Shown: positions 4,268 to 19,954 of the stretch, one piece after another
How positions within the stretch are numbered: the first letter of the stretch is position 1
Layout of the letters: each line of letters starts with the position of its first letter
Virus record (IMG/VR): IMGVR_UViG_3300027749_000535
Coordinates: 1-21,068 of that record
DNA length: 21,068 bases
Reading direction: 5' to 3' (one strand)
From: a virus
Notes under the pieces: model-generated
What the model was told of the DNA's origin: nothing
Database searches by the model: none
Seen by the model: only the letters and a program-made list of their open reading frames with translations
Made by a program: the position numbers and the translations under genes

Positions 4268-5437
4268 ATGATAACAATTGACTCGGTATTAACAGAATTA
4301 TTTCAACTAGACATCAATAAATTAGACAATCGCATATCTAATCGTGATAAAAAGGTTTTAATCAGTCTTGCTAAACAACTTGCAGTGGGACAGTTTTTAA
4401 CTGAGAATCAGTCTACGCTACTAATTAAGATCTTTAAAGAAAATAAAGATTCAATCCCCTCCCCATATAATGAAGTAATTGATTATCCAACATGGAGCAG
4501 GCCATTTAGAGTCTTGGAACAGTTCCGACGAATGTTTATAGACAAAGAGCATGACGGTAGAATTGTTGTGGAATTTACTTATAATAAACGACTACGACAG
4601 CAGATAAGTGAAATCACTAAACAAATAGATGGGCAATTACTTTCATTGAATAGTAAGCAGTACTCTCTAGCACTTACTGAAAAAAACTTGTATCTTATGG
4701 TACATACATTTAAAAGTCAAGGGTTTGATATTGATCCTTTAATTACAGAATTTTATGAAGAGATTTCAAATATATTGTCCACTGATGCGGACATGTTTGA
4801 CGTATTTGATCTACCTAACAAACATATAATTAATGCTATTACTAAAGAAATTGGTAATATAACTCCTGAGAATGTATTATTACTTAACGACAGACGACTT
4901 AGGTTTCAATACTCAATTTACCCAAAAAGTTCTGAAAGTTCATTAGTTAACTCTCTAGCAAATAGACCTAGTACTAAGGTATGGGTTGATAGCAATACTA
5001 CACCATTAGCTGAGGTAGTTCGAGCATTACTCACATTAAATCGACTGCCAGTATTAGTTGTGTTTAACGGCCATGAATCAAAAGAATGTCTACAAAACTT
5101 AAAGAAGTTATCAAATGCGTTAAAGAATAATAGTATTAATGGTAGTAATGGAATTTACTTTAGGTTTGATAATATTACAGACAGCAACAAGGATTTTAAT
5201 CATACTGTTGCTCAGTTAGGATACAACTCTCCGTTAACCGAAAATACATTAGTAGCGGGCATTGCCAATAATAAACTTCCAAAATTCTTCATAAAGTCGC
5301 CTTGGTATCCAATGAGTGTTATCACATTTTCAAACAACTTTAAAAGTAATAAAACCAGTGTGTATTGCGATGCAGTTGATTTGATAGTATACTACAATGA
5401 TAAACGTCCTTTAGGAGGAGTTGATGCCGTCGTGTAA
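4268..5437 (+). CDS. Unknown 389-residue protein coupled to UvsW
   Basis: No enzyme motif is recognised. The N-terminal third is helical and charged. The C-terminal part has alternating hydrophobic strands (RLPVLVVFNG, SVITFSN, DAVDLIVYYND) like a Rossmann/RecA-type sheet but with no Walker motif. A degenerate helicase-like domain is one possibility, not shown. The ATG is preceded only by a consensus-like promoter, so the message appears leaderless. Its last 14 bases overlap the start of uvsW and contain that gene's ribosome site (GGAGGAG, 5414-5420), so the two are co-translated. A UvsW partner is a reasonable guess. Confidence 0.85.
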   Translation: MITIDSVLTELFQLDINKLDNRISNRDKKVLISLAKQLAVGQFLTENQSTLLIKIFKENKDSIPSPYNEVIDYPTWSRPFRVLEQFRRMFIDKEHDGRIVVEFTYNKRLRQQISEITKQIDGQLLSLNSKQYSLALTEKNLYLMVHTFKSQGFDIDPLITEFYEEISNILSTDADMFDVFDLPNKHIINAITKEIGNITPENVLLLNDRRLRFQYSIYPKSSESSLVNSLANRPSTKVWVDSNTTPLAEVVRALLTLNRLPVLVVFNGHESKECLQNLKKLSNALKNNSINGSNGIYFRFDNITDSNKDFNHTVAQLGYNSPLTENTLVAGIANNKLPKFFIKSPWYPMSVITFSNNFKSNKTSVYCDAVDLIVYYNDKRPLGGVDAVV

Positions 5438-6884
5438 GTTAATCATTCAAGATGAAGTAAATCTTAAAGTTGAAGGTCTCCCTGTAGAAATACGTAGGAA
5501 GTTAGCTAATACCTTTAAGTATGAAGATCCGACTGCCCGTTATCGTCCGGCATACAAACTTGGTCGATGGGATGGTGCTATTACATTATTTGGATTAGGC
5601 GGCAATGGTTATCTTAGCCAACTGCCAAAGATCTTAGAAGTACTGGAAAAAAGCGGTGTTGAGATTACAGACATCGTAGATAATCGTGCAGCCATTAATT
5701 TACAGTTTCCTAAAGTAGAAGCAGACTTTTGGGGAGAGCAGTGCTGGCCAGTTGGGCATAGATTTGCAGGGCAACCGATTAGACTACGTGAAGATCAAGT
5801 TGAAGTAGTTAACAAGTTTCTTGAAAATCCACAGTGTCTACAAGAGATTGCAACAGGTTTTGGTAAGACAATTACTACAGCTACCCTAGCAAAGATTTGC
5901 GAACCGTATGGTCGAACATTTACTATTGTACCTAACAAGAGTCTCGTGGAACAAACAGAAGAAGACTTTATCAACTGCGGATTAGATGTAGGAGTGTACT
6001 ACGGCGATCGTAAGGATCTGTACAAGACTCATACTATTGCCACGTGGCAAAGTCTCAATATCCTTGATAAAAAAAGTAAAAATCACGAGCAAGATATTCT
6101 AACACTTGCAGAGTTTCTCGATGGTGTTACAACAATTATGGTTGATGAAGTACACATGGCCAAGGCCACTGTGCTGAGAAATTTACTAACACAGAACTTT
6201 AATAATGCACCTATTCGTTGGGGATTAACCGGTACTATTCCCAAAGAAGACTTTGAAGCAGAACAAATTTTTGCAAGTCTTGGACCATGCGTACACGAGG
6301 TTCATGCCCATGAATTACAAGCTCAAGGTGTACTATCAGCTTGTCATGTTAACATAACACAACTTATTGACTTACCTGAATTTAAGTCATATGCAGAAGA
6401 ATACAAATATCTTGTCACTGATGAAGACAGGATGATTTTTATATCAAAACTAGTAAATGGTATTAGCAATAGTGGCAACACTCTAGTACTGGTAAATCGA
6501 ATAGAGACAGGTAAATTTATTGTAAATGAAATCCCAGATAGTGTCTTTATTTCAGGAGAAGTAAAAACTAAAGATAGGAAAAGTGAATACGATGAAGTTA
6601 AGACTGTTGATAATAAGATTATTGTGGCGACTTACGGTGTGGCCGCTGTGGGTATTAATATCCCCCGTATTTTTAATTTGGTTATGGTGGAATCCGGAAA
6701 GAGCTTTACAAGGGTTATACAAAGCATTGGGCGAGGCATTCGACGTGCGGATGACAAAGACTTCGTACAGATCTGGGATGTCACTTCGACCTGCAAGTAT
6801 GCCAAACGTCACCTCACGCAGAGGAAGAAGTTTTACAAGGATGCGAAATATCCTTTTACAATTGAGAAGATAGACTGGAAATAA
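5424..6884 (+). CDS. uvsW: UvsW-type DNA/RNA helicase
   Basis: This 486-residue superfamily 2 helicase matches T4 UvsW, which unwinds branched DNA and R-loops and switches replication from origin to recombination initiation. The ATG at 5424 is chosen over an adjacent TTG because GGAGG lies 5 nt upstream. Visible motifs are LREDQ (121-125), Walker A ATGFGKT (143-149), DEVH box (241-244), motif III GLTGTI (267-272), motif V region VATYGVAAVGINIP (about 401-414) and motif VI QSIGRGIRR (433-441). The N-terminal 100 residues correspond to the small UvsW DNA-binding domain. Length is like T4 UvsW (about 500). Confidence 0.93.
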   Translation: MPSCKLIIQDEVNLKVEGLPVEIRRKLANTFKYEDPTARYRPAYKLGRWDGAITLFGLGGNGYLSQLPKILEVLEKSGVEITDIVDNRAAINLQFPKVEADFWGEQCWPVGHRFAGQPIRLREDQVEVVNKFLENPQCLQEIATGFGKTITTATLAKICEPYGRTFTIVPNKSLVEQTEEDFINCGLDVGVYYGDRKDLYKTHTIATWQSLNILDKKSKNHEQDILTLAEFLDGVTTIMVDEVHMAKATVLRNLLTQNFNNAPIRWGLTGTIPKEDFEAEQIFASLGPCVHEVHAHELQAQGVLSACHVNITQLIDLPEFKSYAEEYKYLVTDEDRMIFISKLVNGISNSGNTLVLVNRIETGKFIVNEIPDSVFISGEVKTKDRKSEYDEVKTVDNKIIVATYGVAAVGINIPRIFNLVMVESGKSFTRVIQSIGRGIRRADDKDFVQIWDVTSTCKYAKRHLTQRKKFYKDAKYPFTIEKIDWK

Positions 6885-19629: not shown

Positions 19630-19704
19630 TGGCGCCGTAGATGGGACTCGAACCCACCTGGTACTGATAGACAATCAGTTGCCCTCCCCGAGGACTACTA
19701 CGGC
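19630..19704 (-). tRNA. tRNA with Asp anticodon (GUC)
   Basis: A 75-nt cloverleaf including an encoded CCA. Acceptor GCCGTAG pairs fully with CTACGGC, positions 8-9 are TA, the D arm is short, the anticodon stem ACTGA/TCAGT closes the loop TTGTCTA, and the T arm GTGGG/CCCAT carries TTCGAGT. The discriminator is G, as expected for tRNA-Asp. U33 is present. Oddly, position 37 reads T instead of a purine, and U32/A38 could extend the stem to leave a 5-nt loop. It follows the structured RNA without a spacer. Confidence 0.85.
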
Positions 19705-19913
19705 AGTTAGAAAAGAACTAAAGGAACCATTGTGCATCTATGTCTACCATATACGAACGTCTCGTATAGGCCTGCACGGTCATTACTGCCTACATACTCC
19801 GCCGCTTCTCCGGCTTACGCCTGTTTCATGGTCTGGACTCGACCAACACCCGTCGGCATTGTCATCTTCCCAGATCCCTAACGGTGTAGGTAACCTCTAA
19901 CTCTTTTCTAACT
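19705..19913 (-). ncRNA. 209-nt structured RNA of unknown family directly 5' of the tRNA
   Basis: The ends form a 20-bp stem: 19894-19913 with 19705-19724, the outer 12 bp perfect and the inner 8 bp with three G-U pairs. Inside is a nested set of helices: 19885-19890 with 19789-19794, enclosing hairpins 19829-19845 (TGGTC/GACCA) and 19812-19821 (GGC-GTAA-GCC, a GNRA tetraloop); and 19773-19777 with 19732-19736, enclosing 19750-19768 (TATACGA/TCGTATA). The promoter at 19926-19954 predicts a start about 6 nt before the stem. RNase P cleavage at the tRNA 5' end would release it. It does not match tmRNA, RNase P RNA, 6S or group I intron features that I checked by eye. Confidence 0.75.
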
Positions 19914-19925
19914 GTCTATGTATCT

Positions 19926-19954
19926 ATTATACTCTCGATTTGCTATCTCGTCAA
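19926..19954 (-). promoter_or_regulatory. Sigma-70-type promoter for the structured RNA, tRNA and small gene
   Basis: On the minus strand, TTGACG (19954-19949), 17 bp, TATAAT (19931-19926). The TGA stop of the upstream gene (19953-19951) is part of the -35 hexamer. Confidence 0.85.

Follow-up and report, generated by a model that had tools for sequence, protein, structure and literature searches.

A probable family of independent, structured non-coding RNAs in jumbo myophages, with a fixed core and exchangeable arms

Well-described structured RNAs of phages are few, and for those of the tRNA clusters, namely GOLLD, ROOL and the T4 RNAs RNAC and RNAD, no function has been settled. GOLLD and ROOL are structured non-coding RNAs of phages and prophages, often located near tRNA islands, and the members studied measure about 660 nt (ROOL) and more than 800 nt (GOLLD) (PMC12286853). 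RNAC and RNAD, the species 1 and 2 stable RNAs of T4, are 119-139 nt long, lie in the tRNA cluster and have no known function (PMC9697503). A further RNA comes from a related jumbo phage, PA5oct, whose ncRNA004 is a putative lncRNA of 619 nt (positions 40-658 of L210) based on RNA-seq.

Here we describe a 209-nt RNA encoded in the window, by which we mean the whole analysed stretch of 21,068 nt from the IMG/VR virus record IMGVR_UViG_3300027749_000535. The genes of the window include a T4-type replication set with a UvsX-like recombinase, DNA helicases, a primase, a DnaB-like helicase and a clamp-loader-like protein. Its only tRNA is a tRNA-Asp on the minus strand. The helicase at 5421-6884 is 56-75% identical to helicases of virus records of 280-383 kb, and among cultured phages this protein comes closest, with about 50% identity, to those of Sinorhizobium phage Phosso and of the Pseudomonas phages of the PA5oct group. 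Because of these resemblances, the window is very probably a fragment of a jumbo myophage.

The RNA occupies positions 19913-19705 of the minus strand, on which all its parts given below also lie. The initial annotation had proposed a structured RNA behind a strong promoter, closed by a 20-bp stem that ends at the first base of tRNA-Asp, and each of these elements was borne out. The 5' strand of the closing stem P1, AGTTAGAAAAGAGTTAGAGG (19894-19913), pairs strictly with the 3' strand, CCTTTAGTTCTTTTCTAACT (19705-19724), over 20 bp with no mismatches (17 Watson-Crick and 3 G-U pairs). Position 19704, directly past the RNA, is G1 of tRNA-Asp (gtc, 19630-19704). Upstream lies a near-consensus sigma-70-type promoter, TTGACG-17-TATAAT (19926-19954, minus strand; -10 at 19931-19926), which matches 11 of 12 consensus bases and keeps a fixed spacing in part of the relatives. 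Its position predicts a transcription start about 5-6 nt 5' of the stem, in agreement with the 6 nt or so proposed earlier. The 209 nt fold with a minimum free energy of -73.7 kcal/mol (z = -4.67), which none of 200 shuffled sequences equalled, while the opposite strand folds more weakly (z = -3.70).

Folding, alignment and a covariance model together support the complete RNA, and computationally its fold is a three-way junction formed by P1, a 5' domain and a 3' domain. The 5' domain consists of P2, divided into P2a and P2b, and a second three-way junction that carries P3 and P4. In P2, the strand CCUACA-CCGUU (19880-19890) faces GGCGG...UGUAGG (19789-19803); 99-100% of the alignment cells of these helices are paired and the 3' strand is supported by covariation. 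The P3 arm (19830-19877) is a variable hairpin domain that, by covariation and domain comparison, is swapped among copies. P4 (19810-19823) is a hairpin with the GNRA loop GUAA that had been noticed at first reading; such a loop is not universal in P4, being present in only slightly over half of the copies (partly judged by eye). The conserved junction strand AUGAAA (19824-19829) stands between P3 and P4, and the conserved strand (C)AGUAAU (19782-19788) joins the two domains. The 3' domain, P5/P6 (19723-19781), is built from GACC-GUGCA...UGCAC-AAU-GGUUCC with an inner hairpin, is supported by covariation, and ends in the 7-nt apical loop AGACGUU (19756-19762), an instance of AGACGKU. A kissing interaction of this loop with ACCGUU was checked by eye and rejected, since the ACCGUU strand is already paired in P2.

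Covariation in relatives had been named beforehand as the test of this structure. Our alignment held 39 copies, and the structure was derived from the same alignment, which gives a mild bias in its favour. In it, 91.2% of the cells pair, and 48 of the 64 base pairs show at least one double change, including 17 of the 19 pairs of the main closing helix. The double-change cells number 452, against a mean of 147 (sd 11) in shuffled controls and 59-94 when the partners were slid by 1-3 columns. The sliding control preserves the relatedness of the sequences, so shared descent alone is insufficient to account for the covariation, and the circularity is too small to give a five-fold excess. The compensatory changes are thus very strong evidence for one fold. 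The junction strands AUGAAA and AGUAAU are almost invariant across the 39 copies, and the apical AGACGKU loop is kept in 61 of 70 copies while the stem supporting it differs.

A protein-coding explanation was rejected. As the initial annotation had held, there is no convincing frame: read in the direction of transcription, the 72 copies have longest frames of 10-53 codons, and none is conserved or common to them. On the plus strand, a 73-codon frame (19679-19900) runs antisense across the RNA into the tRNA. It looks fortuitous, since the length of the antisense frames inside the RNA is anywhere between 7 and 67 codons in the 72 copies.

We then compared the RNA with the described systems. Rfam searches of the window and its relatives, at gathering and at lax thresholds (E≤10), returned only tRNAs and chance matches, and no model of a known riboswitch or ribozyme class matched. 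The initial annotation was therefore right that no known family could be recognised, and its suggestion of a host-RNA mimic found no support, as no Rfam family matched. Within the partial literature collection searched, we found no description of the 209-nt RNA. Like GOLLD and ROOL, it is phage-encoded and often near tRNAs; unlike them, it measures 209 nt rather than about 600-900 nt and differs in sequence and architecture, and the GOLLD and ROOL Rfam models do not match it at the gathering threshold or at E≤10. A further trait of GOLLD and ROOL is assembly into oligomeric cages made of RNA alone. With RNAC and RNAD it shares being a small RNA associated with phage tRNA genes, but these two stand after a tRNA whereas the 209-nt RNA stands before one. 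The covariance model R1, which scores 191.8 bits on the window copy, reached at most 3.5 bits inside either of them with filters off, and we rejected them as homologues. PA5oct ncRNA004 resembles our RNA in location, preceding the orthologous clamp-loader-like gene by about 2 kb, and was rejected likewise (about 6 bits at best inside ncRNA004). Since the setting is like that of GOLLD, ROOL and RNAC/RNAD, yet the homology tests were negative, we class the 209-nt RNA as a new family inside a known broad kind, comparable in kind to these RNAs and unrelated to them.

The first homologues were retrieved through the neighbouring clamp-loader-like protein, and two pattern scans then gave more than 100 loci with at least 72 distinct copies among IMG/VR contigs, both numbers being lower bounds. 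The homologues belong to contigs of related jumbo myophages of up to 383 kb. R1 found exactly one copy in each of 15 out of 17 IMG/VR records, of which ten are 156-383 kb long. In the other two, which are related and some 350 kb in length, it detected no copy, so the RNA is not universal within its phage clade. R1 also found no copy in PA5oct, Phosso or the whole T4 genome. Using blastn, four different copies had no match among cultured phages, and the window copy had none among plasmids. An exact-pattern scan of bacterial and archaeal genomes for the 5' core gave nothing, and a lone match to the 3' motif in an Anaerolineae bin was rejected by the covariance model.

Closing stems were measured across copies by strict outward pairing, because loose duplex folding of the flanks over-extended the stem. 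The median stem has 21 pairs over all copies, against 4.2 with a shuffled 5' flank, and 48 of 67 copies have at least 15 strictly paired positions (shuffled mean about 4 pairs), while the sequence of P1 is free to vary. The RNA occurs in two settings. In the window type it has its own sigma-70 promoter at a fixed distance: 27 of 71 copies have a promoter matching 11-12 of 12 bases, with 29-30 nt from the end of the -10 to the core GG in long-stem copies and 20-22 nt in short-stem copies. In the other it lies within a tRNA array, between tRNAs and often directly 5' of tRNA-Asp, Glu and Tyr.

Several neighbouring elements were seen along the way. In 14 copies (L019, at about 6398-6485, and 13 others) the promoter and the core are separated by a second structured RNA, which is conserved, about 85 nt long (AAGGCGAUCCUC...CUCGGCCU) and has no Rfam match. 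Just downstream of the core, L059, L109, L115 and L200 have a tRNA-like module (GUCCCGGGAAUCCACGC...GGGACGCCA or GGGGCGCCA); it gets no ARAGORN call, and it replaces tRNA-Asp or stands before it. A motif like AAGGCATTCAGGTAGNCCCTGATGTAAG, possibly a small RNA element, is common to L019, L027, L053, L081 and L059 downstream of the core. The jumbo-phage tRNA array of L215 has large gaps (549-1101, 1940-2144 and 2228-2433) which may hold unrecognised RNAs or small genes.

The exact junction with tRNA-Asp raised the idea, already present in the initial annotation, of a stability or processing element, whose closing stem would stack on the acceptor stem and protect or present the tRNA. The RNA repeatedly stands before tRNA-Asp, and direct junctions occur in the window, L184 (tRNA-Glu), L199, L152 and L113 (tRNA-Leu) with different stems and tRNAs; in most other tRNA-adjoining copies a few A/U-rich bases separate stem and tRNA. 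Nevertheless, among some 70 distinct copies no more than 20-23 have a tRNA (Asp, Ser, Leu or Glu) in the next 40 nt or so. The remaining two thirds or so keep the same core, and a mere clamp would need no conserved core of about 170 nt. We consider this explanation highly improbable. What stands of the earlier interpretation is a new structured RNA with its own promoter and no reading frame; the general tie to the tRNA falls away.

The copies with no adjoining tRNA bear on a second alternative, a cis-acting leader which, by responding to a signal or by slowing transcription, controls the adjacent downstream tRNA or gene. A tRNA or gene on the same strand does come after the copies, and the conserved unpaired junctions look like those of ligand-binding RNAs. 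However, the downstream neighbours are not constant (tRNA-Asp, Ser, Leu and Glu, and assorted small genes). In 20 of the 47 tRNA-less copies, the following gene is served by a strong promoter of its own that begins 5-64 nt past the core, between RNA and gene, against a shuffled rate of 1.8%, and a T run capable of termination follows the RNA in only 2 of the 47. The varying neighbours and next-gene promoters argue against both the leader and tRNA stability as general explanations, and as such a leader is unlikely. In about seven tRNA-less copies, the ribosome-binding site of a gene does come 8-35 nt after the RNA and no strong promoter intervenes, so some copies may act as leaders.

The interior of the RNA is a mosaic. 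A simple motif test gave a wrong context label for at least one array copy (L179), and we therefore limited this reading to pairs with clearly unrelated flanks (L118/L187, L113/L198 and L158/L103). In such pairs the cores are 94-96% identical while the flanks are only about 57-63% identical; L158 and L103, for example, share 94% of the core and 57% of the flanks. P3 types and P5 types occur in many combinations across copies. Judged by sequence comparison, hairpin domains are recombined among the copies, with the junctions and the AGACGKU loop staying fixed. This constant core with exchangeable arms fits a trans-acting RNA.

The same core could be read as that of a ribozyme, either a self-processing RNA or a self-splicing remnant, which cleaves or ligates at its own stem or at the tRNA junction. 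The size of about 200 nt, the nested three-way junctions, the strongly conserved unpaired strands, the GNRA-capped arm of many copies and the neighbouring tRNAs would all suit such an activity. Against this, no ribozyme or intron family matched in separate searches at E up to 10 or 5, and there is no constant site beyond the core, the sequence of P1 varying freely. A ribozyme is thus very unlikely.

Taken together, we favour an independent, trans-acting structured non-coding RNA family of jumbo myophages with a fixed core and exchangeable arms, to which we assign a probability of roughly 0.72. Given the minority of copies with a tRNA and the next-gene promoters, it is most likely an independent RNA and not an accessory of the tRNA or a leader. 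Transcription would start at the RNA's own sigma-70 promoter or reach it as part of a tRNA operon, and P1 would clamp both ends and block exonucleases. In tRNA-adjoining copies, 5' maturation of the tRNA by RNase P would define the 3' end of the RNA. Release of the 209-nt RNA in this manner, as the initial annotation had supposed, is plausible because the maturation would cut precisely at the junction, although a leader base-paired all the way to -1 would be an atypical RNase P substrate. In copies with no tRNA, the 3' end may be defined by a different enzyme, such as RNase III cleaving the stem. The mature RNA would act in trans, alone or in an RNA-protein complex. The fixed junctions and loop would form the common working core, and P3 and P4 would be exchangeable recognition arms, most likely directed at host factors.

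The arrangement suggests an RNA that is sometimes made joined to a tRNA and serves the phage as a device during infection. More tentatively, it could be a modular counter-host RNA in which a fixed core, catalytic or protein-binding, carries P3, P4 and P5 as recognition arms that are recombined between jumbo phages, making the gene an exchangeable cassette in an arms race against host defence or translation factors. With its more than 100 natural variants, its firm secondary structure, a defined promoter and clear invariant positions, the family allows probing, structure determination and pull-downs to be designed at once. It also gives a clear example of a non-coding RNA gene evolving through domain exchange.
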